Position numbers and translations under genes: made by a program. Under the pieces are notes generated by a model. It had not been told where the DNA came from. It was given only the letters and a program-made list of their open reading frames with translations, and did not search any database. Below are positions 11,570-63,440 of a DNA stretch of 64,000 nucleotides, one piece after another. Positions within the stretch are counted from its first letter, which is position 1. Every line of letters begins with the position of its first letter. This DNA is from Candidatus Bathyarchaeota archaeon. Its GTDB lineage: Archaea > Thermoproteota > Bathyarchaeia > TCS64. Location of the stretch: the NCBI GenBank assembly GCA_018396865.1, contig JAGTRB010000009.1:1-64000 (forward strand). Reading direction: 5' to 3'.

Positions 11570-13141
11570 TTGTCTCCTGAACATCGAGTAGCCATTCTTG
11601 GGGGCACCCTGATAGACGGCACAGGCCGCCCCCCAATACAGGACTGCTCCATAATCCTGGAAGGCGAGAGGATAGTCGCCTCTGGGAGGAGGGGCGAGGT
11701 GGAGGTTCCAAGGGATGCGGAGATAATTGATGCGTCCGGCGGGACTGTCCTGCCGGGCTTCATCGACGCCCACACCCACTTCCTCTGGATGGGGATCGGG
11801 ATGGTCAGGTTCGTGGACATGAGCTCAGCCCTCTCCCTCTCAGAGGCCCTCACCCAGGTAGAGGCGAGGCTCAGGGAGACCCCTAAAGGTGAATGGGTCC
11901 TCGGGAGGGGGTGGGATGAGAGCAAGTGGCCTGAGAGGCGCTACATAACCAAGGAGGATATAGACCCCTTCTCCCCCCACCATCCAGTGATGCTCACAAG
12001 GGTGGACGGCCACCTGGTCACCCTGAACTCCAAGGCCCTCGAACTCGCCGGGATAACCAGGGATACCCCAGACCCACCCGGGGGTAGGATAGACAGAGAC
12101 CCCGCAGGTGAGCCCACGGGCATCCTACGAGACGCCCGCCACCTCGTCGAGAGGGTCATACCTCCCCCCACCATGGAGACCGCATTGGAGGGGTTGAGGA
12201 GGGCCTGTGACCTAGCCCTGAGGCTGGGGTGCACGGGGATTCATGACGCGGGCCTAGACTCCTTCGGCCTTGAAGCTTACCAGACAGCCCTGGAGAAGGG
12301 GATCCTTAAGGTGAGGGCATACCTCATGGTTAGGGGCGAGACCGCAAAAGCGGCAGAGGATCTCGGCCTTAGAACGGGCTTCGGATCGGACTTCCTGAGG
12401 CTTGGATCGGTGAAGCTCATAATGGACGGATCCCTAGGCGCCCGAACCGCAGCCCTATTCGAGCCCTACCAAGACGATCCATCAACCAAAGGATTGCTTG
12501 TCTCGAGGCCTGAAGACCTTGAGGAGGAGGCGAGGAGGGCCCACAGGAGGGGCTTCCAAGTCGCCATCCACGCCATAGGGGACAGGGGGATAGAGCACTC
12601 GATAAACATCATAGAGGAGGTCCTCAGGGGCTCCCCGAGGAGGGATCACCGCCACAGGATAGAGCACTGCGAGGTGATGACCACAAACCAGATAGAGAGG
12701 CTCAGACAGCTCGGCATAATAGCCTCCATGCAGCCCAACTTCGTGGGAGAGTGGAGCGGCCCAGGGGGGATGTACGAGGCCCGCCTAGGAGCCGAGAGGC
12801 TGAGGATGAACAACCCCTACAGGGCCCTCCTCGACGAGGGGATCCATGTAGCCTTTGGATCCGATTGCATGCCCTTCAACCCAATATACGGCCTCTGGTC
12901 CGCCCTCAACCATCCGATAAAGGAGAGCCGGATAGGGCTTGAGGAGGCGGTCAGGTGCTACACCTTGGAGGCTGCATACGCGTCCTTCATGGAGGGGCTA
13001 ACGGGGAGCATAGAGCCGGGGAAGCTCGCAGACATAGTCATCTTAGATGAAGATCTCACCAGGATCAAGTCTGAAAGGATAAGGGAGGTGAAGGTGAGGA
13101 TGACCATAGTCAACGGCAAGATCCTATACTCCAAGGATTAA
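11570..13141 (+). CDS. YtcJ-like metal-dependent amidohydrolase (paralogue of the gene at 17908)
   Basis: The 523-residue protein has the Amidohydro_3 layout: N-terminal composite beta-sandwich, metal motif HTHFLWMG (HxH) after GFIDAH, a middle barrel with KLIMDGSLGARTA, AIGDRGIEHS, RIEHCE, and FGSDCMPFNPI. The sandwich closes with GSIEPGKLAD. YtcJ-like enzymes hydrolyse C-N bonds but natural substrates are mostly unknown. It shares 47 identical bases with the opposite-strand paralogue near 18017. It lies 36 bp after the HypE-like gene; the start is TTG. Confidence 0.88.
   Translation: MSPEHRVAILGGTLIDGTGRPPIQDCSIILEGERIVASGRRGEVEVPRDAEIIDASGGTVLPGFIDAHTHFLWMGIGMVRFVDMSSALSLSEALTQVEARLRETPKGEWVLGRGWDESKWPERRYITKEDIDPFSPHHPVMLTRVDGHLVTLNSKALELAGITRDTPDPPGGRIDRDPAGEPTGILRDARHLVERVIPPPTMETALEGLRRACDLALRLGCTGIHDAGLDSFGLEAYQTALEKGILKVRAYLMVRGETAKAAEDLGLRTGFGSDFLRLGSVKLIMDGSLGARTAALFEPYQDDPSTKGLLVSRPEDLEEEARRAHRRGFQVAIHAIGDRGIEHSINIIEEVLRGSPRRDHRHRIEHCEVMTTNQIERLRQLGIIASMQPNFVGEWSGPGGMYEARLGAERLRMNNPYRALLDEGIHVAFGSDCMPFNPIYGLWSALNHPIKESRIGLEEAVRCYTLEAAYASFMEGLTGSIEPGKLADIVILDEDLTRIKSERIREVKVRMTIVNGKILYSKD
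12983..13029 (+). repeat. 47-bp stretch identical to the complement of 18017-18063
   Basis: This segment of the first amidohydrolase gene is identical base for base to the complement of 18017-18063 in the second. It encodes the shared SFMEGLTGSIEPGKLA region. The surrounding coding sequence is similar but much less identical. Confidence 0.85.
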
Positions 13142-17907: not shown

Positions 17908-19545
17908 CTAGGCCTTGTAAACGGTCCTGCCTCCCAGTATTGTTCTAAGGACCCTCACATCCTTTATCTCGTCCTCCGGACATGTGAGGATATCCCTGTC
18001 TATTATGATCAGGTCCGCGAGCTTCCCCGGCTCTATGCTCCCCGTTAGCCCCTCCATGAAGGATGCGTAGGCCCCATTCCAGGTATACATCCTTATCGCC
18101 TCCTCCCTGGTCACCCCCTCCCCCCTCCCCAACTCCAGGTTTTTGACCTCGGTCCTCCTGGCTATGGATGCCCAGAGGCTCACGAAGGGGTGGTATGGGG
18201 TGACTGGGGAGTCCGTCCCAGAGGCGACCAGGACACCTCCATCTATCCAGGACCTGTGGGGCAGGAGCTCTGAGGCCCTCCTGGGTCCCACATTCTCGTA
18301 GTAGCTGTCTCCGAGGTAGTATAGGAAGCTGGGCTGAGAGGCGACGACGACCCCTAGGAGGCGGCAGTCCTCGATGTTCCCCCTGGTAGGCTGGTACGCG
18401 TGGATAAGGGTATACCTCCTCCCCCCGATGCTCCTCCTCCTATCTGTCTCCTTAAAGGCCTCTAGGACAATGTCCATCGCCCCTCCCCCTGCACAGTGGA
18501 CCCCCACTGTCATGCCCTGCTGGTTAGCCTCATCAACCAGCCTCTGGAGGCTCTCTCTAGGGAGGGTGAGGACGCCATAGTTCTCGGGCTCCCCCTCATA
18601 TGGCTCCCTTAGAAGAGCTGTTCGGCCTCCGATCCCCCCATCTATGAGGAGCTTCAACCCCAGGAATCTGAGCATGCTGCAGCCGAAGCCCGTGAGTAAT
18701 GGGAACTCCCTGATCCTCCTTAACCCCTCCTCTATGGGTTCTCCCCCCTCCAGCCCCCTGAGCATCATGCTGACCCTGACCGTCAGCTTCCCATCCGATA
18801 GGGCCTTCTGATAAGCCCTCATATCCTCGGCTGATAGCCCAGGCTCTATCACCCCAGTTATCCCCGCCTCGTTAAGGGCCTTAGATGCCATACCTATTGC
18901 CTCAACCTTCCTCTCAAATGTTGGGGGAGGTATACACCTCCTCACGAGGTTGAAGGCCGGCGCCTCCCTAAGGATCCCGGTGGGTTCACCGCTCTCATCC
19001 TTATCGATCACGCCCCCCGAGGGCTGGGGGGTATCCCTGCTGATCCCAGCGATCTCCAAGGCCCTGCTGTTCACCACTACGATGTGCCCACATGTCCTTG
19101 TCAGGATGACCGGGTTCTCCGGCGCAGCCTTGTCGAGATCCCACCTCGTGGGAAACCTATGCTCCGCCAGCTTCGCCTGGTCCCAGCCCCTCCCCTCGAT
19201 CCAATCCCCAGGCCTGAGCCTCTCAGCCCTCTCCCTCACGGCATCGATGATATCTGATATAGAGCTCCTAGGCGGGGTCCTGCAGTCTATCATGAACATA
19301 CTTAAACCTGTCCCGAGCATGTGGATGTGGGAGTCTATCAATCCAGGTAGGACCGTCCTCCCCTCCAGGTCTATAACCTCGGTTCCATCTCCCGCAAACC
19401 CTTTGACCTCCTCGTTTGAGCCCACTGCGACTATCCGCTCACCCTTGACCGCTATCGCCTCCGCTATCCTGAAGCTGGGGTCAACGGTTACAACCTTCCC
19501 ATTCATAAGAACTAGGTCCGCCTTGCATGACCCTGAACTAAACAT
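17908..19545 (-). CDS. YtcJ-like metal-dependent amidohydrolase (paralogue of the gene at 11570)
   Basis: It has the same architecture as the gene at 11570: LIDSHIHMLG metal motif, KLLIDGGIGGRTALL, GVHCAGGGAMD, TLIHAYQ, ASGTDSPVTPYHP and the closing GSIEPGKLAD. GVHCAGG replaces the AIHAIGD of the paralogue, so specificity probably differs. The frame extends to 19590, but the TATA box at 19575-19583 lies inside that extension. The ATG at 19545 is about 8 nt after the predicted transcription start and is preferred. It converges on the HD-domain gene. Confidence 0.87.
   Translation of the reverse strand: MFSSGSCKADLVLMNGKVVTVDPSFRIAEAIAVKGERIVAVGSNEEVKGFAGDGTEVIDLEGRTVLPGLIDSHIHMLGTGLSMFMIDCRTPPRSSISDIIDAVRERAERLRPGDWIEGRGWDQAKLAEHRFPTRWDLDKAAPENPVILTRTCGHIVVVNSRALEIAGISRDTPQPSGGVIDKDESGEPTGILREAPAFNLVRRCIPPPTFERKVEAIGMASKALNEAGITGVIEPGLSAEDMRAYQKALSDGKLTVRVSMMLRGLEGGEPIEEGLRRIREFPLLTGFGCSMLRFLGLKLLIDGGIGGRTALLREPYEGEPENYGVLTLPRESLQRLVDEANQQGMTVGVHCAGGGAMDIVLEAFKETDRRRSIGGRRYTLIHAYQPTRGNIEDCRLLGVVVASQPSFLYYLGDSYYENVGPRRASELLPHRSWIDGGVLVASGTDSPVTPYHPFVSLWASIARRTEVKNLELGRGEGVTREEAIRMYTWNGAYASFMEGLTGSIEPGKLADLIIIDRDILTCPEDEIKDVRVLRTILGGRTVYKA
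18017..18063 (-). repeat. 47-bp stretch identical to 12983-13029 in inverted orientation
   Basis: This is the second copy of the identity tract shared by the two YtcJ-like amidohydrolase genes. The two copies face each other about 5 kb apart, so recombination between them could invert the intervening segment. Confidence 0.85.
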
Positions 19546-19574
19546 AAACCTCAGATTTAGATCACGCTCATTGA

Positions 19575-19583
19575 AATATAAAA
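19575..19583 (-). promoter_or_regulatory. TATA box deciding the start of the amidohydrolase gene
   Basis: The minus strand reads TTTATATTT, centred at 19579, predicting transcription from about 19553. That excludes the upstream in-frame start at 19590 and supports the ATG at 19545. Confidence 0.5.
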
Positions 19584-19784
19584 GATGCACAGGAAGATAT
19601 GGATCTGAATCCTCTTTCGATTTGAAAGGCCTCTTTATAGAAATGCGGTCTCCAGGAGGGGTCTTTTAATACGTTTATAGCATCTATTTCAGGCGTCATC
19701 CATGAAGCTCAATTAGATGGGTTTTCATAAGGCCTATTGGGTTTTTAGGAGCCACCAGTTGGCCTAAAGTTCTTCATGCCTCTT

Positions 19785-26352: not shown

Positions 26353-28428
26353 ATGCTGATCCGAGAGGTTATTCTGGAGAACTTCATGTCCTACGAGTAT
26401 GCAAGGGTTCCCCTAAAACCAGGTCTCAACATAGTTGTAGGCCCTAACGGCTCGGGGAAGTCGGCCTTCCTCCAAGCCATCTGCGTAGCCCTTGGGGAGA
26501 CCTACACTGAGCGCTCCAAAAGGCTTAGCGACCTAATAAGGTGGGGGGAGAAGAGAGCTCGGGTGAGCCTCCTCCTAGACAACTCCGTCAGGGAGGATGG
26601 CAGGAGGCCCATTCAACAATTCGACTCCGACGTGATCAGGATATCGAGAACCCTGAGGAGGGACGGCAGGTATAGCTTCCACATCAACCAGCGTGGGGCT
26701 CAGAAGCAGGAGGTTGTCGAGATCCTCAGGCGTCTAGGATTCGACCCGGAAAACATGCTGATAATAATGCATCAGAATATGGCCGAGATCTTCGCAGCCC
26801 TCTCCCCACAGGAGAGGCTGAGGAGGTTGGAGGAGGCCGTTGGATTCCAGTCCTTCAGGGCCGATGTCCTAGAGGCTAGGAGAAGGCTTAGCGGGATCCT
26901 AAGCGAGGAGGAGAGCCTCAGCCAGCTCCTTGAGAGGTCAAGAGAGACGCTGAACTACTGGAGGGAGCAGTACGAGAGGCTTCAAGAGAAGAAGAGGCTG
27001 CAGATACGCCTGAGCTTCCTGCAGAGGGAGATGGCGTGGAGCAGGGTCTCAGAGCTCGAGGGGGCGAGGAGGAGGCTTGAGGAGGAGGCCGAATCAGCAG
27101 TCGAGGCTCTAAAGAGGTGTGAGGAAGACCAGGAGCAGTACAACCTTCAGATCATAGAATCTAACCAGCGGCTTAAGGAGTTGAGGGGTATGCAGGCCGA
27201 GCTGATAGAGAAGAGGGTGAGATACGAGAGGGATCTAGGGGTCTACAGGTACGCAATAATGGAGGTAAAGGATCGAATAGCCGAGATCGATAGCATGATG
27301 AAGTCCTTTGGGGAGTGGAAGAAGGGCCTCGAGGAGAGCTTCAAGGAGCTAAGGGGGAGGCTGAAGGCAGGTGCAACCCTAGAGGACTACTTCAAGCTCT
27401 TCGAGGAGGTGGAGAGGAGGGAGACTGAGACCCACGAGAGTTGGATCTACGGGCTAAAGGGCAGGAGGGAGGAGGCTGAGAAGCAGCTGGCCTCACTGGA
27501 GGAGAGGCTTATAGAGGCTGAGGGGAAGGCAACCGCGGCCCTGGAGGGGTTGAGAAGGATAGAAGCCCTAATGGATGAGGCTGGCAACCGCTACATAGAG
27601 GCGAGGATCCAGGCGGCCCTCCTGAAGGAGCGAATGGAGGGTCTCAGGAGAAGGCTCGAAGCTCTAAGGGGAGAGGTTGAAAGGGTCTCTAAAAGCCTCA
27701 AGGAGGCTGAGGCTGAGGCCCTGATAAGAGGAGCCAGAATAGAGACCGGGAGATCCTCTGATGAGGTCATGAACGAGATCAGGAGGGTTGGGGGGATGCT
27801 CATAGCCATGGCAGACGTCCCAGAAGAGGCGGAGGCGATGTACGAATCTTACTCGAAGACATACAAGGAACTATTGGAGAAGGCTCAAAGGGTTAGAGAG
27901 AGCAGGGTCAAGGTGATGGAGGAGGTGGAGGAGAGGGTCAAGAAGTGGAGGGAGGTGACCAGAGGCCTAGTAGAAGAGGTTAACCTAAGGTTCCAGAGCC
28001 TCCTATCCCGCCTCCAAGCCAGGGGAGAGGTGAGGCTGACGAATGAGATGGATATAGAGGAGGCGGGCATTGACATATATGTGGGATTTAAGGGCGGGGA
28101 GATGAGGCTTCTAGACCCCTACACACAGAGCGGAGGGGAGAGAACCACCGCGGTTATGGCTTTCCTCCTCTCCCTACAGCAGAAGATCCTATCCCCATTC
28201 AGGGCTGTAGACGAGTTCGACCTCCATATGGATCCGAGGAACAGGGAGGTCGTCACCGAGTTCCTCTTCTCAACGTTGGAGGGCTCCTCAGACCAGTATC
28301 TGGTCATAACCCCGAGCCAACTTGTTTTGAAGGGTGGCAACTCACACATAATAATGGTCCATAAATCTGAGGGCTCATCAACGGTAAGTCTGGTGAAGGA
28401 GGATGAGGGAGAGGGAGGCCAGGTCTGA
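26353..28428 (+). CDS. Short-armed SMC ATPase with Smc5/6-type head motifs
   Basis: The 691-residue protein has the SMC head at both ends: Walker A GPNGSGKS (30-37), Q-loop MHQNMAEIF (Q141), coiled coils from ~165 to ~550, signature SGGER (593-597) and Walker B FRAVDE (616-621). The signature-to-D-loop stretch (QSGGER..., PFRAVDE, then MDPRN) and the following [10 protein letters not shown] match eukaryotic Smc5 closely and differ from canonical SMC and Rad50 (no Zn-hook CxxC). It is only about 60% of normal SMC length and I see no recognisable hinge domain. It overlaps the next gene by 26 bp. Confidence 0.85.
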
Positions 28429-29185
28429 GCTCCAGAGCGTGATCGACCTCTGCAGGGCAGCCTCGGGTGGGAGGCTAGACCCCTTCGCAGTTGATGCAGA
28501 CTACGTGCTCTCAGTGATCCGAAGATACTATCCGAACGTGAATTCTCTTGAAGACCTATGCCTCGACGCCACAGCCATAAGGGAGCTATCATCGGTTCTG
28601 GAGAGGCAGAACGAGTGGATCAGGCATCAATCAACCATCCTCTACAAAGACCCATTCATACTAACCCAGCAGCTCATGAGGATGGACCTAGCGGCTATAG
28701 TGGAGGCCTTCCTATCCTCCTGGCACCCCGTCGTAGAGCTCGAGCAGGTATCAGCCCCCACCCTCGCCCTCTCCCTGGCCTACTGGGGCAGCCTCCTCCC
28801 CATAAGCGAGAGGTTGGCTGAGATAGAGGTAGGAGAGACCGAGGCAGAAACGATGGGACGAGAGGAGGTAAAGGAGTTCATCTTAGACCAGAGCTTCTCA
28901 GAGAAGCTAGAGGCGATGTGGAAGGAGCTGTTGGAGAGGGCCGGTGAGGAGATGAGGGTAGACTACTGGGAGTGGTTGGACGGGGAGGCCTTCGAGGAGG
29001 CGTTGGAGAGGGCATACCTAACATGCTTCCTAATTGGCTACGGCTACGCGAGGATGGAGCTGGATAGGCTCCAGGAAAGGGTCGAGCTGATACCATACAG
29101 GGAGCCTAAGACAGACCTAGCCTCGAGGGCCTCCATCCCATTACTGATAGACCAGGAGGAGTGGATGAGATGGCGAGGAGGTTGA
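28403..29185 (+). CDS. SMC-associated protein with kleisin-like N-terminus
   Basis: The 260-residue acidic, helical protein overlaps the SMC gene by 26 bp and the next gene by 16-25 bp. The N-terminus [19 protein letters not shown] followed by [11 protein letters not shown] resembles the ScpA kleisin pattern (LxxLLxLIRxGxLDPWxIDI). A helix of the type that contacts the SMC neck would follow. The middle has [22 protein letters not shown] see no clear C-terminal winged helix by eye. Position and pattern suggest a kleisin bridging the SMC heads; this is inference. GGTGAAGGA lies upstream of the ATG. Confidence 0.6.
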
Positions 29186-30109: not shown

Positions 30110-31453
30110 GTGGATTTGCAGGGCTTGGTACACTTAAGATTCGAGAAGGGTGAGCTGATCGCTGAGGGCTTCTCCATACCCGGAGGGGTCTATGATAAGG
30201 ATATCCGAGCCTATCGAGCTCCCGCCTACCGCTATGGAGAACTCATCGATTATCTCAAAAGGTGGCACATCGATTATATAGATGAGGCCCTTAAGGCCCC
30301 AGACCCTATAGGCCTCTCCTCCCGCATCGTCCTCCGAGACTATCAGAGGAGGGCTCTCGAGGCCTGGATGGCCTCTGGGAGGAGGGGGATCATCATCCTA
30401 CCCACCGGATCCGGGAAGACCCAGATAGCTATAAAAGCCATTGAAATGCTTGGGGCCTCCACCCTCATAGTTGTCCCCACCCTCGTACTTGTGGAGCAGT
30501 GGCGTAGGAGGCTAGAGGAGGCTTTCAGTATCGAGATAGGGGTGGTGGGGGGAGGGAGGTATAAGATAAACCCCCTCACCGTGGCCACATACGAATCGGC
30601 AAGTATTAGGGCTGAGCATCTCGGGGACAGGTTCTTAATGCTCGTCTTCGACGAGGTCCACCATCTCTCCGCCCCCACCTTTAAAAGGATAGGTGAGATG
30701 TACCTCGCCCCCTATAGGATGGGGTTGACGGCGAGGCTTGGGAGGACAGGCCGCGGAGGCCTCGAGGCCTCAGAGCTGACTGGTGAGGTAGTCTTCGAGA
30801 TGGCGGTTGAAGACCTCGCGGGGGTGCACCTCTCGGACTACACGATCCACACCATCTATGTACCCTTATCGGAGCAGGAGGCCAGGGAGTATGAGGCCAA
30901 TTTCTCCATCTATAGAGAATACATAAGGAGAAGGGGAATGAGCATGAGAAGCCAGGATGACTTTCAGAGGTTCATCAGGCTGAGTGGATTCGACCCAGAG
31001 GCGAGGAGGGCCCTCCTGGCCAGGAACAAAGCTATGGAGGTTGCCCTGAACTCCGAGGAGAAGATCAGGCATCTTAAAAGGATTCTAGAGGAGAACCCCT
31101 GGGAGAAGGTGTTAATATTCACCCAGCATAACAGCCTCGTCTACAGGATAAGCAGGGAGATGCTCATCCCAGCCATAACCCACCAGACCCCTCAGAGGGA
31201 GAGGGAGGAGATCCTCGAGAGGTTCAAGTCAGGCCAATATATGAGGGTGGTTACAAGCAGGATCCTCGAGGAGGGAGTTGATGTGCCCGACGCCTCCGTG
31301 GCCATAATCCTAAGCGGGACCGGGAGCAGCAGGGAGTTCATCCAGCGACTGGGGAGGATCCTCAGGAAGAGGGAGGGGAAGCACGCCAGGCTCTATGAGC
31401 TCGTATCCAGGGGAACCGCTGAGGCCCGTCTAAGCAGGAGGAGGAAGGCTTGA
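30110..31453 (+). CDS. XPB-type SF2 DNA helicase
   Basis: The 447-residue protein has an N-terminal ~70-residue damage-recognition-like region, DYQRRALEAW (Q-like motif), Walker A LPTGSGKTQ (~97-105), DEVHHL (181-186), MGLTAR (motif III), and in the second RecA domain FTQHNS, TSRILEEGVDVP and QRLGRILRKREG (motif VI). It matches archaeal XPB, the 3'-5' helicase of nucleotide excision repair. The GTG start is ~5 nt after the predicted transcription start. Its stop overlaps the Bax1 gene by 4 bp, the known archaeal pairing. Confidence 0.92.
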   Translation: MDLQGLVHLRFEKGELIAEGFSIPGGVYDKDIRAYRAPAYRYGELIDYLKRWHIDYIDEALKAPDPIGLSSRIVLRDYQRRALEAWMASGRRGIIILPTGSGKTQIAIKAIEMLGASTLIVVPTLVLVEQWRRRLEEAFSIEIGVVGGGRYKINPLTVATYESASIRAEHLGDRFLMLVFDEVHHLSAPTFKRIGEMYLAPYRMGLTARLGRTGRGGLEASELTGEVVFEMAVEDLAGVHLSDYTIHTIYVPLSEQEAREYEANFSIYREYIRRRGMSMRSQDDFQRFIRLSGFDPEARRALLARNKAMEVALNSEEKIRHLKRILEENPWEKVLIFTQHNSLVYRISREMLIPAITHQTPQREREEILERFKSGQYMRVVTSRILEEGVDVPDASVAIILSGTGSSREFIQRLGRILRKREGKHARLYELVSRGTAEARLSRRRKA

Positions 31454-32604
31454 TCCTGCCCCCCGAGCTTCTACGGACGAAGATAATCGGAGGCTCGGTA
31501 AGGCTCATCTACGCTGGGGAGGAGGCTCTCAGCCTTGCGAGAACACTCACAGCTGTATTTGAGGAGGCCACGGAGAAGACCAGGAGGGAGCTTCAGGAGG
31601 GAATTAGGAGATGCGAGGAGCTCGGATACGACTACAGGCTCGTGAGGGGCCTCGCCTCCATCCTTGAGGAGTTCTGCACCTTCCAGACTAGAGCCTTAGT
31701 TGAACCAGAGGTGGCCAGGAGGACGGTCTTCGAGGAGGCTGGGATAGAGCCTATCACCACCGATGAGCAGAGGTCTAGAGTTCTCAAGAGGGCTGCTGAA
31801 AGGCTCAGGGTCTCCCCCAAGGACTTAGAGGAGAGTCTTTACGCAGATCTATGGGAAGAACAGATTCTAGCCGCGTTCGAGCCTCCTGAGCCCCTTGAGC
31901 TTCTTAGGAGCTACAACTTCTCCCTAACCCTGACACTACTAGCCCAGGCCAGAAGGATAGAGGCGAGATTCAGGGGGGAGGATGAAGGCCTTATGCCCAT
32001 TGGAAAGAGTTTGGGCACCTGTCTGATGAAAGGAGAAGGAGAGGCGTCCGTAGTAGTGGTTGAACCAAGCTCTGCCAGGTCTGGAAGGAAAGCCTACGAG
32101 CTCGAGGCCTTCCTATCTCGTATTATGCTCCAGGAAAGATGGAGGATAACTGCTGAGGTGGAGCATCCACCCGGGTCAAAGCTTAGAAGGTTCGAGGTGT
32201 TTCAGGAAATCCATGGAAAGATGATAACACCAAGAAATCTCAAGGGGAGACCCGACCAACAGAGGAATCCTCATAGGTTTGAAGGCCACTGGGAAGAGGG
32301 GATAGTGGTCATTCAAGACTTCGCCTCCAGACTTGGACTAACCGAGGAAGAGGCGAAGAGGAGGCTGAGGGAGAGAAATAAGAGTTACATTGATATCGGA
32401 GGGATCTATATAACGCGGGAGAAACTGGATATATTGAGGTCATACTTAGGATGCTATCAGAACCCGAACCTCTCCGATGCTATCTCATTTTTGAGGAGGC
32501 TGGGATGCAGGAGGCCAATTCAGGTCTTAGAGGCCCTTGGTTACACGGTGGAATGGGGTGAGAACCTCAAGGACGGCAGGGTCTACAAACCTGGAAAGAG
32601 ATGA
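31450..32604 (+). CDS. Bax1-like nuclease (DUF790), partner of XPB
   Basis: The 384-residue protein matches the DUF790 family: N-terminal LPPELLRTKIIGGSVRLIY, a helical domain (RGLASILEEFCTF), then the segment ESLYADLWEEQILAAF and RSYNFSLTLTLLAQA. Bax1 binds archaeal XPB and nicks 3' of lesions or bubbles through a PD-(D/E)XK-like site. The start TTG/ATG overlaps the XPB stop by 4 bp, so translation is coupled. The C-terminal ~120 residues look helical, and a Trp/Glu-rich piece is less familiar. Confidence 0.85.
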   Translation: MILPPELLRTKIIGGSVRLIYAGEEALSLARTLTAVFEEATEKTRRELQEGIRRCEELGYDYRLVRGLASILEEFCTFQTRALVEPEVARRTVFEEAGIEPITTDEQRSRVLKRAAERLRVSPKDLEESLYADLWEEQILAAFEPPEPLELLRSYNFSLTLTLLAQARRIEARFRGEDEGLMPIGKSLGTCLMKGEGEASVVVVEPSSARSGRKAYELEAFLSRIMLQERWRITAEVEHPPGSKLRRFEVFQEIHGKMITPRNLKGRPDQQRNPHRFEGHWEEGIVVIQDFASRLGLTEEEAKRRLRERNKSYIDIGGIYITREKLDILRSYLGCYQNPNLSDAISFLRRLGCRRPIQVLEALGYTVEWGENLKDGRVYKPGKR

Positions 32605-37607: not shown

Positions 37608-39248
37608 TTATGGATGGGGTTTAACCCTCTTCAGGATCCTCCCAGCCATCGCCCCGGTGTGCTCTCCATCTCTGACTGTTAGGACGCCGTTGACGAGGAG
37701 GTGCTCTATGCCCTCGGGGTATCTCATCGCAGCCTCCGGAGGGGTGTAGTCTGATTTGTCCTCAATCCTCTCGGGGTCGAATACCAAGATATCGGCCCAC
37801 ATTCCTGGGATGATCAGGCCTCTGTCATATAGCCCAAGGACACTCGCGGGAAGGGAGGTCATCTTCCTAATCGCCTCCTCTAGGGTGAGCAGCCTCTTCT
37901 CCCTAACATATCTCTTCAGGACCCTTGGGAAGGTTCCATAATACCTGGGGTGAGGTGAGGGCTCATGTCTCCTCAGGGGAGCTTTGGGTGAGTGGACCCT
38001 TCCGTCGGTTCCGAAGGCCACCCAGGGCCTCCTCATAATGGCCTCAACGTTCTCCTCTGACTGGTTGAAGTTGACTATGGAGAATCCCCCCTCCAACTCT
38101 CCGGATATGCTCTTCTCGATATGCTCCCTGAATAGGTTGAATATTGCATCCTCAGGTTCTTCTCCCCTAATCTCAGCGGCCTCCGCTATAGTCTTTCCAA
38201 CCAATGAGGGATCGGCTGGGTAGCTTGAGATCAGGGCTGCAGAGGCTCCTCCCCTCTCATCCATTGATTCGGCGAGGGCTCTACGTATCTTAGGGGCCAG
38301 CTCAGGATCCCTGAGCCGCTTAGCTAGAGCTTCGGGCCCCCCCTCATGGGCCCAATGGGGGATCCAGGCCCCGGGCCCTGTTCCGCTGGCGTTGTATGGG
38401 TATTGGTCGGCGGTGATTTCCAATCCCCTCGCCCTAGCCTCCTCAACCAGCTGGATGAGCCTAGGGCATAGGCCCCAAAACCTCCTGGAGAGAACCTTGA
38501 AATGGGATATATGGACTGGTATGCCCGCCTCCTCCCCGATCCTGATTATCTCCTCCACCGCACCCATGGGGTCGCCCCTGTCCCCCTCATCCCTAATATG
38601 GCTCGCGTAATAGCCACCATATCGAGCAACAACTTTGGCCAACTCGATAACCTCCTCAGTAGATGCATAGCTCTGAGGCACATACCTAAGACCTGTAGAG
38701 ATGCCGAGACAGCCAGCCTCCAAAGCCCTTACCAACTCCTCCTTCATGGCCTCAAGCTCCTCCAGGGTGGGGGGCCTCATCTCCATCCCCATCACGTACC
38801 TCCGGATGTTTCCAAAGGCGGCCATAGGGGCCACATTCACGGAGATACCCCCCTCCTCCAACCGCTTGAGGTACTCCTCAACTGTATGCCAGTCGATGCC
38901 TAAGCCAGCCTCCCTCAGGTAAGGGTGAAGCCTCTCCTCCTCCCTCCTCATCTCATCGTTGAGGGGGGCGGCACCCGAGCCGCAGCTGGGGAAGACGACT
39001 GTTGAGACGCCCATTCGAACCTTGTTCTCCGCCCTCCTATCCACCAGGAGCGCGAAGTCCGAGTGGTCGTGGAGGTCTATGAAACCAGGGCAGACCATCA
39101 GCCCTGAGGCATCCAGTGTCTCCTCGGCTCCTTCGAAGACCTTGCCCACTTCAACTATCCTCCCATCACTAACCGCCACATCGGCCCTGAACCAGGGGTT
39201 TCCAGCACCTGTGATAATCCTTCCACCCTTAATCACGAGGTCGTACAA
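37608..39248 (-). CDS. N-acyl-D-amino-acid deacylase (D-aminoacylase) family
   Basis: The 546-residue amidohydrolase starts DLVIKGGRIITGAGNPWFRADVAV-like (sandwich strand; shown in part) and has the metal motif GFIDLHDHSDF (HxH), then GISTGLRYVPQSYA, YASHIRDEGDR, VHISHFKV, ITADQYPY, FGTDGRVHSP and the closing GMWADILVFDP. This order is typical of D-aminoacylases and dihydropyrimidinase relatives acting on N-acyl-D-amino acids. A paralogue lies upstream at 39695. Confidence 0.88.
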   Translation of the reverse strand: MYDLVIKGGRIITGAGNPWFRADVAVSDGRIVEVGKVFEGAEETLDASGLMVCPGFIDLHDHSDFALLVDRRAENKVRMGVSTVVFPSCGSGAAPLNDEMRREEERLHPYLREAGLGIDWHTVEEYLKRLEEGGISVNVAPMAAFGNIRRYVMGMEMRPPTLEELEAMKEELVRALEAGCLGISTGLRYVPQSYASTEEVIELAKVVARYGGYYASHIRDEGDRGDPMGAVEEIIRIGEEAGIPVHISHFKVLSRRFWGLCPRLIQLVEEARARGLEITADQYPYNASGTGPGAWIPHWAHEGGPEALAKRLRDPELAPKIRRALAESMDERGGASAALISSYPADPSLVGKTIAEAAEIRGEEPEDAIFNLFREHIEKSISGELEGGFSIVNFNQSEENVEAIMRRPWVAFGTDGRVHSPKAPLRRHEPSPHPRYYGTFPRVLKRYVREKRLLTLEEAIRKMTSLPASVLGLYDRGLIIPGMWADILVFDPERIEDKSDYTPPEAAMRYPEGIEHLLVNGVLTVRDGEHTGAMAGRILKRVKPHP

Positions 39249-39694: not shown

Positions 39695-41476
39695 TTAAGC
39701 TTGGCCCCTCCTTAGGACTCTACCTGGCTTAGCCCCTGTGTGCTTGTCCTTCTCTATGACAGCAACCCCGTTGACGAAGACATACTCGAAGCCCGTTGGG
39801 TATCTCCTCGTCTCCTTGGGGGTGCTGTTCATCCTCAGGTTCTCCCAGTCTATTATTAGGATGTCCGCGTAGCCTCCAACCTCTATCTTCCCTCTACCCT
39901 TTAGGTTGTGGGATTCAGCGGGCAGGGCAGTGCACTTCCTAACAGCCTCCTCTAGGCTAAGGAGCCTCTGCTCCTTTACGTAGCGGATGAGGAAGGATGG
40001 GTATGCGGAGTATGTGTTTGGCCCAGGCCTGTCCCATGGTGGGTATACCCCCTCCCTCTTATCGTCGACCATCGACGAGTCGACGCCCACCATACCTCTC
40101 GGATGCTTATAGAAGAGTTTCACATAGTCCTCCGTGAACCTGTAATCCCCTATGGAGCATCTAGAATCGGGATCCTCGACTATCAGGTCGAACCAGGCCT
40201 CCATGGGGTCCTTCCCCAATTCCAAAGCTATCTCTGCTACGGACCTGTCGAGATACTTCGGGTTCTTATGCTCAGTTATGGTTATCTCCCTGGCCCAGTT
40301 TGGGTTCATGTTAGGGTTGGATGGGGGCTGGATATAGAACTTCCCCCTCTGGAGGGCCTCCCTCACCTCCTGCCTGAAGTCCGCCATCCTGAGAGCCCTC
40401 GCGAAGGCCTCCCTCGAACCCAGAAGCCTCAGGAACGGGGCGAAGTGGCCGCAGAGGTAGTGGGAGGTGAACCACCAGTAGGGGATGACATCGAAGTAGG
40501 CCTCGACACCCTCAGCTATGTACCGGTCTATCACATCCAGGGTTGCCCTCCCTATCGCCTCCTGTATAACCCTAGGTGGAGGTATCGGCGTCGCATCCCA
40601 GCCCCCGTAGAGGTGGGCTATCACTATCGGTACCCCAGCCTTCTTCGCCGTCTCAAGCTCGTCGATAATCCCCTGTATCCTGTTCCATGGAATACCGGCT
40701 GTGATGCCCCTCCTCCTACCCGTCCTCCTCCAATGGGGCGAGTAGATCGACCCAGGATAATCCCTCAGGATGGCTACATGCCTGTCTATCTCCTCCCTCG
40801 AGGCGAAGCAGTCCGGGTCGTAGTCAATCCCCGCCGAGAGGCCTATACACCCCTCATCCATGGCCTGCCTTATGAGCCTACCGATCTCCTCAACCTCCTC
40901 AGGGGTGGAGGGCCTCTCATAGTCGTTGCCGAGGACAGCCGTCCTGCAGGCACCGTGCCCCACTAGGGGTGCGTAATTTATCGAGAAGCCCCTCTCCTCA
41001 ATGACCTTGAAGTACTCCCCCATCGTCCTCCAGGTTATGGTCCAGCCGAACTTCTCCTTCAGGAGCTCATTCACCCTCTCCAATGGAAAATACGGCTTCC
41101 TGGGGAAGTACATGAAGGGCTCGAGCTCATAGACATACTCCTCAGCGATGCCCGGAAGCCTGACCACCTCTCCCACCGGTGCTGGAGAGCTTCCACACTG
41201 CCCCCCGACGAAGGTGGTGACCCCCATATGAACATCACTCTCACACAAAGGATAGAAGAGAATATTTCTATCAGAGTGGCTGTGGGAGTCCACAAACCCG
41301 GGCGTGGCTAGGAGCCCTGAGGCATCGACCTCCCTGACAGCATCCCCTTTAACTTTCCCTAAGGCGGCTATCCTATCACCCTTAACCCCTATGGAACCCT
41401 TGTAGGCATCTCTTCCAGTCCCGTCGATGATGGTGGCATCCCTTATGAGCAGATCATACTCTATAACCATCAACAA
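39695..41476 (-). CDS. N-acyl-D-amino-acid deacylase family protein, long form
   Basis: The 593-residue protein has the same family order as its neighbour: GFVDSHSHSDRN metal motif, CIGLSAGIDYDPDCFAS, YSPHWRR, IVIAHLYGG, FDVIPYWW, MVGVDSSMVDD and GGYADILIIDW. It carries extra segments (for example around residues 300-400), and several barrel motifs are altered (VIPYWW for ADQYPY). Specificity probably differs from the 546-residue paralogue. Both are on the minus strand, but the 446-bp gap argues for separate promoters. Confidence 0.85.
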   Translation of the reverse strand: MLMVIEYDLLIRDATIIDGTGRDAYKGSIGVKGDRIAALGKVKGDAVREVDASGLLATPGFVDSHSHSDRNILFYPLCESDVHMGVTTFVGGQCGSSPAPVGEVVRLPGIAEEYVYELEPFMYFPRKPYFPLERVNELLKEKFGWTITWRTMGEYFKVIEERGFSINYAPLVGHGACRTAVLGNDYERPSTPEEVEEIGRLIRQAMDEGCIGLSAGIDYDPDCFASREEIDRHVAILRDYPGSIYSPHWRRTGRRRGITAGIPWNRIQGIIDELETAKKAGVPIVIAHLYGGWDATPIPPPRVIQEAIGRATLDVIDRYIAEGVEAYFDVIPYWWFTSHYLCGHFAPFLRLLGSREAFARALRMADFRQEVREALQRGKFYIQPPSNPNMNPNWAREITITEHKNPKYLDRSVAEIALELGKDPMEAWFDLIVEDPDSRCSIGDYRFTEDYVKLFYKHPRGMVGVDSSMVDDKREGVYPPWDRPGPNTYSAYPSFLIRYVKEQRLLSLEEAVRKCTALPAESHNLKGRGKIEVGGYADILIIDWENLRMNSTPKETRRYPTGFEYVFVNGVAVIEKDKHTGAKPGRVLRRGQA

Positions 41477-59591: not shown

Positions 59592-62500
59592 TTGAAGGCC
59601 CTTAACGCGATCAGGTTCGGCATCCTCTCCCCTGATGAGATAAGGAGGCTATCGGTCGTAGAGATACAGACACCAGAGACATATGACGAGGACGGGGCCC
59701 CCATCTCTGGAGGCCTTATGGATGGGAGGCTTGGGACACTCGAGCCCCGCCAGCGCTGCAGGACATGCGGTAACACATCCCTCAACTGTCCGGGGCACTT
59801 CGGGCACATAGAGCTCGCGGTCCCTGTTATACACGTCGAGTTCGCGAAGTACATCCACAGACTCTTACTCGCGACATGTAGGAGCTGTGGGAGGATACTG
59901 CTGCCAGATGACGAGATATTTGAGCTGAGGGATAAACTTGAGGAGGAGAGGAGCCTCTTCGGGAAGGTTAGCGAGGAGATAATCCTCGAGGTTCTGAGGA
60001 GGGCGAAGAAGTACAAGAGGGGGAGGCAGTGCCCCCACTGCGGGGCTAGGCAGAAGAATGTGAAGTTCCTCAAACCCACTACCTTCTATGAGGTTGAGGG
60101 CGAGGAAGAAGAGGGTGAGGAGGAGGCAGCCCCTGAGGACGTGAGCCAGAGGCTCACATCAAGCATGGTAAGGGAGTGGCTTGAGAGGATAAAGGATGAG
60201 GACCTGCCTCTCCTCGGCTTCGATCCCTCCATAGCGAGGCCCGAGTGGATGGTGCTCCAGGTGCTCCCAGTCCCACCAGTTGATGTCCGACCCAGCATCA
60301 TCCTAGAGTCCGGGATAAGGGCTGAGGACGACCTCACCCACAAGCTGGTGGACATAATAAGGATAAACCAGAGGCTGAGGGAGAACATAGACGCCGGGGC
60401 CCCGACACTCATAATAGAGGACCTCTCAGAGCTCCTCCAGTATCATGTGACCACGTACTTCGATAATGAGGTCTCAGGCATCCCTCCGGCTCGCCACAGG
60501 TCCGGCAGGCCCCTCAAGAGCCTAGCCCAGAGGCTGAAGGGTAAGGAGGGAAGGTTTAGGGGTAACCTCTCGGGTAAGAGGGTGGACTACTCTGCGAGGA
60601 CGGTCATCTCCCCAGACCCAAACCTAGACATTAACGAGGTGGGTGTACCGGTCCACATAGCCATACGCCTAACGGTCCCTGAGACCGTCACGGAGAGGAA
60701 TATAGAGGAGATGAGGAGGCTAATAATCAACGGTCCTTACAGGCATCCGGGCGCCCTCTACATCATAAGGCCAGATGGGAAGCGCGTGAGGCTGGAGTTT
60801 GTGGCCGACCGTGAGAAGGTGGCTGCGGCGATAGAGCCGGGCTTCATCGTTGAGAGGCACCTAAGGGATGGCGATATAGCCCTCTTCAACAGGCAGCCCA
60901 GCCTCCACAGGATGAGCATCATGGCCCACAGGGTTAAGGTCCTCCCATACAAGACCTTCAGGCTCCACCTAGCGGTATGCGCACCTTATAACGCTGACTT
61001 CGACGGGGACGAGATGAACCTCCACATCCCCCAGAGCAAGGAGGCCCAGGCCGAGGCCCTCTTCCTGATGCAGGTGCAGGACCAGATCCTATCACCTAGA
61101 TATGGAGCACCCATAATAGGGGCCTCCAGGGACTTTATAACCGGGGCCTACCTCCTCACAAGGAAGGGCACATTGCTTACAAGCGGGGAGGTGGGAAGGC
61201 TCCTCACAGCGGCTGGTTACAGGGGGGCCATTCCCGAACCCACGGTCAGTGACCCCGAGCCATTATGGTCTGGGAAGGACATCTTCAGCCTCTTCCTCCC
61301 AAAAGACTTCAACTTCGTCTCTAGGGCGAGCATCTGCCGCCACTGTACAACCTGTGAGCAGGAGAGGTGCCCATACGACGCCTATGTGATGATAAGGCAG
61401 GGTCACCTCATCACAGGGGTCATAGATAAAAATAGTATAGGAGGGGAGATCCCTGAGACCATATTCCACAGGATAGTGAAGGATTATGGAACCGATGTGG
61501 GACACCAGTTCTTGAACTCTATCTGTCGCCTCCTGAATGAGTTCATGTCTATGAGGGGGTTCACCTACGCCCTGGACGAGCTCGAGATTGGTGAGAGGGA
61601 GAGGAGGGAGATAAGCAAGGTGATGAAACAGATGGAGAGGAGCGTCCAAGAACTCATCGAGGAGTTCAGGATGGGGAAGCTGAGGAGGCTTCCAGGGCAG
61701 ACCTTGGAGGAGTCCTTCGAGATCCAGGTGATGAACGAGCTCTCTAAGGCCAGGGATGAGGCCGGGGAGGTTGTCGAAGAGGGTCTAGGATGGGAGAACT
61801 CGGGGATAATAATGACGAGGACTGGTGCCAGGGGCTCAAGCCTAAACCTTGGACAGATGATGGGCTCGGTGGGGCAGCAGGCGATAAGGGGTAAGAGGAT
61901 AATGAGGGGCTACTCGAACAGAACCCTGCCCCACTTCAGGGAGGGGGATCCATCACCCCATGCCAGGGGCTTCATATACAGCTGTTATAGGGACGGTCTC
62001 AACCCCATCGAGTTCTTCTTCCACGCTATGGGGGGAAGGGAGGGGCTGGTCGACACAGCTGTTAGAACCCAGCAGAGCGGGTATATGCAGCGACGCCTGA
62101 TAAACGCCCTCGAACATCTAAGGGTCGAGTACGATGGAACCGTCAGGGACTCCCTCGGCAACATAATAGAGTTCAGGTACGGTGAGGACGGTGTAGACCC
62201 CGCTAAGAGCGACCACGGAAAGGCCGTCAACATAGAGCAGCTCATAGAGAGGATAAAGATATTCATGGAAGGCGGGGAGCCCGCATCCAAGGATTATATA
62301 GAGGCCAGGCTGAAGGACGTTGAAGGGAGGCTGACTCCGAGCCTCATAGAGGATCTTAAAAGGAGATTACCCGCCTCCGGCCTGAGCAGGGAGGGGGTTG
62401 AAGAGGTCCTCAATACGGCGCTAAGAAACTATGACTTCAGCTTGGTCGAGGCGGGGGAGGCCGTCGGAACCGTAGCCGCCCAGTCCATAGGTGAGCCTGG

Positions 62501-63440
62501 AACCCAGATGACCCTCCGAACCTTCCACTACGCCGGGGTCGCAGAGCTCAACGTAACCCTCGGCCTACCAAGGCTGATAGAGCTTGTCGATGCAAGAAGG
62601 GTTCCCTCCACCCCAGTTATGACCGTTTATCTAGATGAGAGGCATAGGAGGAACCCTGAGAAGGCAAGAGAGGTGGCTCAGAGGCTTACTTACACGGTCA
62701 TAGGTGACATTGTCAGAAGCTTAAACATCGATGTGAAGAGGGATGTCATGGAGATAACCTTCGATCCCTCGAAGATGGAGGATCTTGGGGTCAACCAAGT
62801 GGAGTTGGAGGCAGCCCTCCATAGGATGGAGAGGGAGCTGGGAAAGGCCGAAAAACTGGATGAATACACATACAGTGTCAAGCTCTCAAAGAAGGCCCCA
62901 GACCCCGAGAGGCTGATGGAGAAGCCGGTGAAGGGTGTCCCCCAGATAAAGAGGGCTCTAACCATATTAGAGGGGGATGAATGGGTGATAAGAACCGACG
63001 GCTCCAGCCTCAAGGATGTCTTAAACATCGAGGGTGTAGACCCTCTGAGGACGACGACAAACGACATACATGAGATCGCAGAGGTCCTCGGCATAGAGGC
63101 GGCAAGGAACGCCCTTATAAGGGAGGCCCATAATGTCCTGGAGGAGCAGGGTCTAGACGTGGATATAAGGCATGTGATGCTCGTAGCCGATATAATGACC
63201 AACTCTGGAGAGGTCCAGCAGATAGGTAGGCACGGGATAAGCGGAGAGAAGAGCAGCGTCCTCGCAAGGGCCGCCTTCGAGCTAACCGTCCAACACCTAG
63301 TCAACGCCGCCGTTAAGGGCGAGAGAGACCCCCTGAAAGGGGTTGTTGAGAACATCATCGTCGGGCAGTCGATGCCCATAGGAACCGGGAGCGTTGAGCT
63401 CTTCATGACCATGGGAGGAGGGCATAATGAGCGTAAGTGA
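59592..63440 (+). CDS. rpoA: DNA-directed RNA polymerase largest subunit, A' and A'' fused
   Basis: The 1282-residue protein covers both A' and A''. Zinc sites CRTCGNTSLNCPGHFGH and CRSCGRILLP lie near the N-terminus, the catalytic NADFDGDEMNLH near residue 470, the bridge helix/funnel in the middle, and the A'' trigger-loop region GEPGTQMTLRTFHYAG around residue 970. In most Cren- and Euryarchaeota this is split into rpoA1 and rpoA2. No intein is visible. TTG start, with GGAGGT at 59578-59584. The end overlaps rpl30e by 14 bp. Confidence 0.98.
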   Translation: MKALNAIRFGILSPDEIRRLSVVEIQTPETYDEDGAPISGGLMDGRLGTLEPRQRCRTCGNTSLNCPGHFGHIELAVPVIHVEFAKYIHRLLLATCRSCGRILLPDDEIFELRDKLEEERSLFGKVSEEIILEVLRRAKKYKRGRQCPHCGARQKNVKFLKPTTFYEVEGEEEEGEEEAAPEDVSQRLTSSMVREWLERIKDEDLPLLGFDPSIARPEWMVLQVLPVPPVDVRPSIILESGIRAEDDLTHKLVDIIRINQRLRENIDAGAPTLIIEDLSELLQYHVTTYFDNEVSGIPPARHRSGRPLKSLAQRLKGKEGRFRGNLSGKRVDYSARTVISPDPNLDINEVGVPVHIAIRLTVPETVTERNIEEMRRLIINGPYRHPGALYIIRPDGKRVRLEFVADREKVAAAIEPGFIVERHLRDGDIALFNRQPSLHRMSIMAHRVKVLPYKTFRLHLAVCAPYNADFDGDEMNLHIPQSKEAQAEALFLMQVQDQILSPRYGAPIIGASRDFITGAYLLTRKGTLLTSGEVGRLLTAAGYRGAIPEPTVSDPEPLWSGKDIFSLFLPKDFNFVSRASICRHCTTCEQERCPYDAYVMIRQGHLITGVIDKNSIGGEIPETIFHRIVKDYGTDVGHQFLNSICRLLNEFMSMRGFTYALDELEIGERERREISKVMKQMERSVQELIEEFRMGKLRRLPGQTLEESFEIQVMNELSKARDEAGEVVEEGLGWENSGIIMTRTGARGSSLNLGQMMGSVGQQAIRGKRIMRGYSNRTLPHFREGDPSPHARGFIYSCYRDGLNPIEFFFHAMGGREGLVDTAVRTQQSGYMQRRLINALEHLRVEYDGTVRDSLGNIIEFRYGEDGVDPAKSDHGKAVNIEQLIERIKIFMEGGEPASKDYIEARLKDVEGRLTPSLIEDLKRRLPASGLSREGVEEVLNTALRNYDFSLVEAGEAVGTVAAQSIGEPGTQMTLRTFHYAGVAELNVTLGLPRLIELVDARRVPSTPVMTVYLDERHRRNPEKAREVAQRLTYTVIGDIVRSLNIDVKRDVMEITFDPSKMEDLGVNQVELEAALHRMERELGKAEKLDEYTYSVKLSKKAPDPERLMEKPVKGVPQIKRALTILEGDEWVIRTDGSSLKDVLNIEGVDPLRTTTNDIHEIAEVLGIEAARNALIREAHNVLEEQGLDVDIRHVMLVADIMTNSGEVQQIGRHGISGEKSSVLARAAFELTVQHLVNAAVKGERDPLKGVVENIIVGQSMPIGTGSVELFMTMGGGHNERK

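Follow-up and report, generated by a model that had tools for sequence, protein, structure and literature searches.

A hinge-less archaeal SMC ATPase encoded with Nse4-like and KITE partners as the probable core of an Smc5/6-type complex

Results

The window, by which we mean the whole 64-kb stretch of the Candidatus Bathyarchaeota contig JAGTRB010000009.1 that was analyzed, carries three consecutive genes in the order SMCL-ORF2-ORF3, with neighboring genes overlapping by ~25 bases each (Table 1). The first of them encodes an SMC-like ATPase (SMCL). Its Walker A, signature and Walker B motifs are all intact, as is characteristic of ATPases of the Smc5/6 clade, and the Q-loop MHQ lies at residues 139-141. 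A preliminary description, made from the sequence alone, had drawn attention to four motifs of the C-terminal head, and these were all found where they are expected in an SMC head: QSGGER, PFRAVDE, MDPRN (residues 626-630) and a ten-residue motif at residues 648-657. Because full-length orthologues (39-93% identity) occur throughout the class and the SMCL profile matches 128 of the 300 genomes sampled from the phylum, SMCL is a conserved gene and not a chance open reading frame. It is under purifying selection (dN/dS of 0.12 in comparison with a congener), and the corresponding values for ORF2 and ORF3 are 0.15 and 0.07. Aligned members of the SMCL family are 572 to 691 amino acids long.

TABLE 1 Positions of the genes and protein features at the locus, in window coordinates
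Feature	Position	Strand	Basis
SMCL (691 aa), hinge-less SMC ATPase of Smc5/6 type	26353..28428	+	PDB matches, profiles, head trees
Walker A GPNGSGKS, residues 30-37	26440..26463	+	Motif position in translation
N-terminal arm, single long helix, residues 166-334	26848..27354	+	AlphaFold2 model
Apex loop replacing hinge, residues 335-342 (8 residues)	27355..27378	+	AlphaFold2 model, no SMC_hinge, no CxxC
C-terminal arm (residues 343-553), helix broken at 460-468 and 486-492	27379..28011	+	AlphaFold2 model
ABC signature QSGGER, residues 592-597	28126..28143	+	Motif position in translation
Walker B PFRAVDE, residues 615-621	28195..28215	+	Head alignment and motif position
ORF2 (260 aa, start codon uncertain), Nse4-like kleisin	28403..29185	+	Profile against PDB, Pfam
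Nse4_C-like C-terminal region of ORF2, ~residues 141-226	28823..29080	+	Approximate mapping from profile coordinates
ORF3, KITE, tandem winged helix, Nse1/Nse3(MAGE)-like, 194 aa	29161..29745	+	AlphaFold2, Foldseek, Pfam
XPB-like helicase and Bax1-like nuclease, not in conserved unit	30110..32604	+	Neighborhood comparison

The two arms of SMCL are joined at their apex by a loop in place of a hinge. In the AlphaFold2 model (mean pLDDT of 84), most of this loop has a pLDDT below 50, and the helix that returns from it spans residues 343-459. The apex is also the least conserved stretch of the family. The Pfam SMC_hinge family was listed neither for the window SMCL nor among the 25 commonest families matched by 18 members, while the canonical SMC encoded elsewhere in this genome matched it at 60.8 bits and an Asgard relative (L218) at 51.7 bits. 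The dimerization domain at the coiled-coil apex that marks an SMC sensu stricto is thus missing from SMCL and present in the Asgard protein. The CxxC motif of a Zn hook is absent from the entire length of all 31 family members. Across the family, the segment between the head halves measures 268-389 residues, equivalent to an arm of ~130-190 residues or, by helical rise, ~20-29 nm. The earlier view of SMCL as a compact protein of 691 residues with neither a Zn hook nor an obvious hinge is therefore confirmed by the Pfam search, the CxxC scan and the modeled coil with its short turn. Because a hinge is present in canonical SMCs as well as in eukaryotic Smc5/6, the simplest reading is that the hinge was lost in this Thermoproteota family.

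The preliminary description also held that the head tracks Smc5 better than canonical SMC or Rad50, and the rankings of PDB matches bear this out. The best matches to the single SMCL sequence were yeast Smc5 (118 bits) and Smc6 (108 bits), ahead of Pyrococcus SMC (106 bits) and Rad50 (39 bits). With the family profile, Smc6 and Smc5 scored 244 and 242 bits, Pyrococcus SMC 181 bits and Smc2 165 bits, and the gap between Smc5/6 and other SMCs thus widens on going from the single sequence to the profile; Rad50 reached 42 bits with a narrower SMCL profile. SMCL and the Smc5/6 heads have the motifs QSGGER, FR..DE (FR.vDE) and ITP in common. In a Foldseek search with the SMCL model, Smc6 and Smc5 rank high, with superpositions that are weak owing to the flexible coils, and our assignment does not draw on this ranking. 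A scan of genome contigs returned mostly canonical SMCs.

For the head trees, the N- and C-terminal segments of each head were concatenated, and the sequences covered the SMCL family, canonical archaeal SMC, bacterial SMC, Smc2, Smc5, Smc6, Rad50-like, ASRP and Asgard SMC-like proteins; the eukaryotic segments were taken from PDB alignments and represent yeast and human only. In the 73-row tree, the SMCL family is recovered at 99/99 (UFBoot/SH-aLRT) and is sister to Smc5+Smc6 at 97/95; the closest named relative of the window protein in this tree comes from a Bathyarchaeota MAG (L110). Rad50, coalescin/ASRP, canonical archaeal SMC, bacterial SMC and Smc2 fall outside this grouping. A firm position within Rad50/SbcC or another archaeal SMC-like family had been named beforehand as the outcome that would speak against an Smc5/6 affinity; the trees place SMCL in neither, and the sister relationship to Smc5+Smc6 recurs, strongly supported, in several taxon samplings.

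The strongest alternative, which we nevertheless regard as improbable, is that SMCL is a derived archaeal SMC paralogue, that its grouping with Smc5/6 is an artifact of long branches or convergence, and that its partners are fast-evolving versions of ScpA and ScpB. The Smc5 and Smc6 branches are indeed long (1.3-1.8 changes per site), and Smc5+Smc6 as one clade is supported at only 93/57. However, SMCL groups with either eukaryotic protein when the other is left out (Smc5 alone, 99/96; Smc6 alone, 97/93), and the grouping with Smc5/6 is recovered at 100/97 after removal of the longest rows, a data set in which the AU test rejects trees that hold canonical SMC and Smc5/6 together (P = 0.005). 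These head comparisons support the SMCL family as the sister group of eukaryotic Smc5+Smc6.

The products of the two downstream genes bear on the same question. When the PDB was searched with a profile of 16 ORF2 homologues, Nse4 was the top match (E = 3.7e-4). With 30 diverse homologues, Nse4 was again on top (E = 9.6e-6), followed by human EID3 (E = 2.9e-5), a paralogue of Nse4, and next by C-terminal domains of ScpA (E = 0.0085 and 0.011); the N-terminal region of ORF2 weakly matched the N-terminal domain of ScpA (E = 0.23). Pfam Nse4_C was found in 21 of the 30 homologues (best E = 3.5e-7), and among the families listed no other occurred in more than one member. Because the window ORF2 by itself has no Pfam match, the link to Nse4 rests on its family. 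More generally, scanning ORF2 and ORF3 singly against Pfam and NCBIfam yielded nothing useful, and the signal came from the family-wide scans; NCBIfam has no model for either protein. By the homology of its family, which is supported at the C terminus, ORF2 is classed as Nse4-like (delta-kleisin).

The AlphaFold2 model of ORF3 (pLDDT of 83) has the tandem winged helix that characterizes KITE proteins. In a Foldseek search of the PDB, chains of the MAGE-G1/NSE1 and Nse1-Nse3-Nse4 complexes came first (E = 1.7e-5 to 2.6e-4), ahead of MukE and ScpB; among the PDB searches this fold comparison alone gave a match, the ORF3 sequence profile having none. MAGE and SMC_Nse1 were the two commonest Pfam families in 30 ORF3 members (7 and 4 members, respectively), at modest per-protein E-values (best 2.8e-4). 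As modeled, ORF3 is a KITE protein of the Nse1/Nse3 type. It ends after the second winged helix and so leaves no room for a RING domain. Its similarity to both Nse1 and Nse3, in a genome unit with one KITE gene, would fit a single ancestor that preceded their split. As a separate observation, one ORF3 homologue matches the NCBIfam model of Sul12a, a chromatin-organizing family (E = 1.6e-6), which hints at a link between Sul12a and KITE proteins.

The weak matches of the ORF2 profile to ScpA, and the 20 bits that the genome's own ScpA scores against that profile (distinct but detectable), are what would be expected if the partners were fast-evolving ScpA and ScpB. Against this, the partners independently agree with the heads: Nse4 outranks ScpA, the Nse1/Nse3 folds outrank those of ScpB and MukE, and the genome's own ScpB gives no signal to the ORF3 profile. 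That ScpA and ScpB (PF02616 and PF04079) are adjacent genes that follow a canonical SMC of 1188 amino acids on the same contig, ~57 kb downstream of the operon (G000:C9:85.4-90.3 kb; L290 6369-11284), and this ScpB scores 87 bits to its Pfam family. Because a separate SMC-ScpA-ScpB set is encoded at this other site, ORF2 and ORF3 are not the missing partners of the canonical SMC, and the window operon is a second, parallel SMC-kleisin-KITE set.

Gene order and co-occurrence tie the three genes together. They are contiguous in nearly all class relatives compared and keep the order SMCL-ORF2-ORF3 in 17 of 20 representatives drawn from a broader set of families, the SMC gene being divergent in one of the remainder and at a greater distance on the contig in two. 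In L098 and L104, SMCL lies ~8-11 kb from ORF2-ORF3 on the same contig. Among the 300 genomes of the phylum, SMCL, ORF2 and ORF3 profiles match 128, 126 and 125 genomes, respectively, with SMCL and ORF2 jointly present in 124 and all three genes in 122; several of the genomes that break the pattern are fragmented or incomplete. Among class relatives, absence of one of the three genes largely coincides with absence of all. Each genome has one SMCL gene and hence no SMC heterodimer of the kind that defines Smc5/6, and the operon neighborhoods of class and wider relatives contain no Nse2, Nse5 or Nse6 gene in the conserved operon.

These patterns make it very unlikely that only the ATPase is Smc5/6-like and that ORF2 and ORF3 are co-transcribed without being subunits, ORF3 acting, for example, as a DNA-binding regulator. 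Such a reading could draw on the Sul12a match and on a few genomes (L089, G120 and G252) in which the SMC gene is several kb away from ORF2-ORF3 or on the opposite strand, but it would have to explain why the three genes are present or absent together across the 300 genomes and why exactly ORF2 and ORF3 show homology to the families that supply the kleisin and KITE subunits of Smc5/6. We give equally little credence to an anti-plasmid or anti-phage defense module of the Wadjet or Lamassu kind. The SMC-kleisin-KITE make-up does resemble JetABC, and the ATPase is weakly similar to LmuB and mad3; however, the conserved unit contains no nuclease or effector, neither ORF2 nor ORF3 matches any PADLOC model, and the operon occurs as one copy per genome in many families with a constant gene order. 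Least probable of all is that SMCL is a Rad50/RecN-type or ASRP/coalescin-type ATPase, an identity suggested by similar length (570-700 amino acids) and a 79.8-bit match to the NCBIfam ASRP model but rejected here, since the cut-off of that model is 300 bits, CxxC is found in 0 of 31 members, Rad50 and ASRP rows fall outside the family in the head tree, and Rad50 works without a kleisin or KITE partner (PMC10586767).

The operon is followed immediately by genes for an XPB-like helicase and a Bax1-like nuclease, the latter matching Bax1 models over approximately its first 255 residues only. We rejected the pair as functional partners, as they adjoin the operon only in the window's genus. Elsewhere in the window, inspection by eye suggests that a 1282-aa open reading frame (59592-63440) joins the A' and A'' regions of RNA polymerase (unsplit RpoA) and that four genes are amidohydrolase/deacylase-like (11570-13141, 17908-19590, 37608-39248 and 39695-41476).

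Related operons occur in a few of 196 Asgard genomes, in which a hinge-bearing SMC of 831-840 amino acids is encoded, in the same order, with an Nse4-like ORF (E-values of ~1e-14 to 1e-16) and an ORF3-like KITE (~1e-15). The SMCL family profile scores ~350 bits to this SMC and ~190 bits to Asgard SMCs of canonical length. In the head trees, the 831-840-aa SMC is no closer to Smc5/6 than is the hinge-less family, and its position varies with sampling. A single-sequence search with the 831-aa protein places canonical SMC ahead of Smc5/6, so this protein is not merely an elongated SMCL. Long Asgard SMCs of 1121 amino acids (L224-L226) were considered as better Smc5/6 ancestors and rejected, as they do not group with Smc5/6 in the head trees. 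An AAA+ ATPase gene lies directly upstream of the Smc5/6-like SMC gene in Asgard (L218 8575-9963; also L219 and L221) and of the 1121-aa SMC gene (L224 3438-4526). In another Asgard genome (G440; L222 7398-12563), an unusual SMC-like ATPase of 1057 amino acids bears the signature HSSGQK; the locus also encodes a protein of 322 amino acids and a 313-aa ORF with a match to Nse4_C.

Discussion

We propose, with a probability of roughly three in four, that SMCL is the ATPase subunit of an Smc5/6-type SMC-kleisin-KITE complex in archaea, composed of an SMC homodimer, the Nse4-like ORF2 and the KITE protein ORF3. The data establish features of sequence, fold and gene linkage; the physical complex, its stoichiometry, a clamp mechanism and a role in repair or genome maintenance are what we infer. 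Some observations count against parts of this proposal: the window ORF2 has no Pfam match of its own, the E-values of single proteins for the KITE matches are modest, SMCL does without a domain that eukaryotic Smc5/6 has kept, and the linkage to XPB-Bax1 is confined to one genus, which weakens the case for a role in repair.

In yeast Smc5/6, DNA lies between the engaged heads below and Nse3, which closes the top, above, with Nse4 joining all parts (PMC9191643). This clamp forms at the heads and not near the hinge, and the archaeal operon has the parts of the clamp and drops the hinge. By analogy, we suggest that the archaeal complex may act as an ATP-gated, short-armed DNA clamp. Two SMCL heads would sandwich two ATP molecules; the kleisin would bind the head of one SMC through its C-terminal winged helix and contact the neck of the second SMC through its N-terminal helical domain, with KITE proteins seated on the middle of the kleisin. 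Heads, kleisin and KITE would then shut over one DNA duplex, forming an ATP-dependent clamp atop the heads that hydrolysis would open. Because a dimer without a hinge must be held together otherwise, namely by heads in the ATP-bound state, by the bridging kleisin and perhaps by contacts between the coil tips, the complex would act in genome maintenance as a clamp with arms of only ~20-29 nm rather than as a hinge-closed, long-armed ring.

Eukaryotes have six SMCs. The conserved archaeal operon suggests that the entire core of Smc5/6, a DNA-repair complex of eukaryotes, and not the ATPase by itself, is older than the eukaryotes and occurs here in a hinge-less form. With less confidence than we place in the complex itself, we favor the broader view that the homodimeric complex, with a single SMC that is sister to Smc5 and Smc6 alike, a single KITE resembling both Nse1 and Nse3 and an Nse4-like kleisin, represents the pre-eukaryotic Smc5/6 core and is the first hinge-less kleisin-KITE SMC machine, so that hinge closure would be dispensable for such machines. 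Current definitions hold that a hinge goes with kleisin and KITE partners and a Zn hook with Mre11 (PMC10586767); the SMCL family departs from this pairing. With its hinge lost, the family lends itself to finding out which parts of the SMC cycle depend on ring closure, and the small size of the proteins should make structures and single-molecule work feasible.

Previous work portrays archaeal SMC complexes as a canonical SMC joined by ScpA and in many cases by no functional KITE, and argues that a KITE is missing from archaeal Smc and smc itself from Crenarchaeota (PMC7055376). In the open-access literature, we found no account of archaeal Nse4-like or Nse1/3-like partners or of hinge loss, and the novelty of the Nse4-like and KITE partners is probable. 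The ATPase itself has precedent. Compared by description, the archaeal "SMC5/6-related" SMCs named by Yoshinaga and Inagaki in 2021 (PMC9389158, PMC10003631) likewise have heads that group with Smc5/6, and SMCL probably belongs to the same family; the papers that summarize them make no mention of partners. Of the compact archaeal Smc5/6-like ATPase of the preliminary description, then, the affinity stands, while the protein is not a lone ATPase, being encoded with an Nse4-like kleisin and a KITE, and SMCs of this affinity were already in print.

Among known systems, canonical SMC-ScpA-ScpB has the same composition and gene order as the window operon but differs in its long arms, its hinge and its ScpA and ScpB families; archaeal ScpB, moreover, reportedly does not bind ScpA (PMC7055376). 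Wadjet JetABC(D) and MukBEF follow the same SMC-kleisin-KITE logic, yet they have a hinge, long arms and other kleisin and KITE families, and Wadjet adds the nuclease JetD. ASRP/coalescin proteins (ClsN, Sph) are, like SMCL, short archaeal SMC-like ATPases; most of them carry a Zn hook, they form a different clade, and SMCL falls below the ASRP cut-off. The eukaryotic Smc5/6 core (Smc5, Smc6, Nse4, Nse1 and Nse3) is built on heterodimers and comes with further subunits, whereas the archaeal operon has a single SMC gene and a single KITE gene, no Nse2/Nse5/Nse6 or RING seen within it, and a hinge-less SMCL with arms of ~130-190 residues. What the two share is the sister relationship of their heads, the QSGGER, FR.vDE and ITP motifs, an Nse4-like kleisin and a MAGE/Nse1-like KITE.
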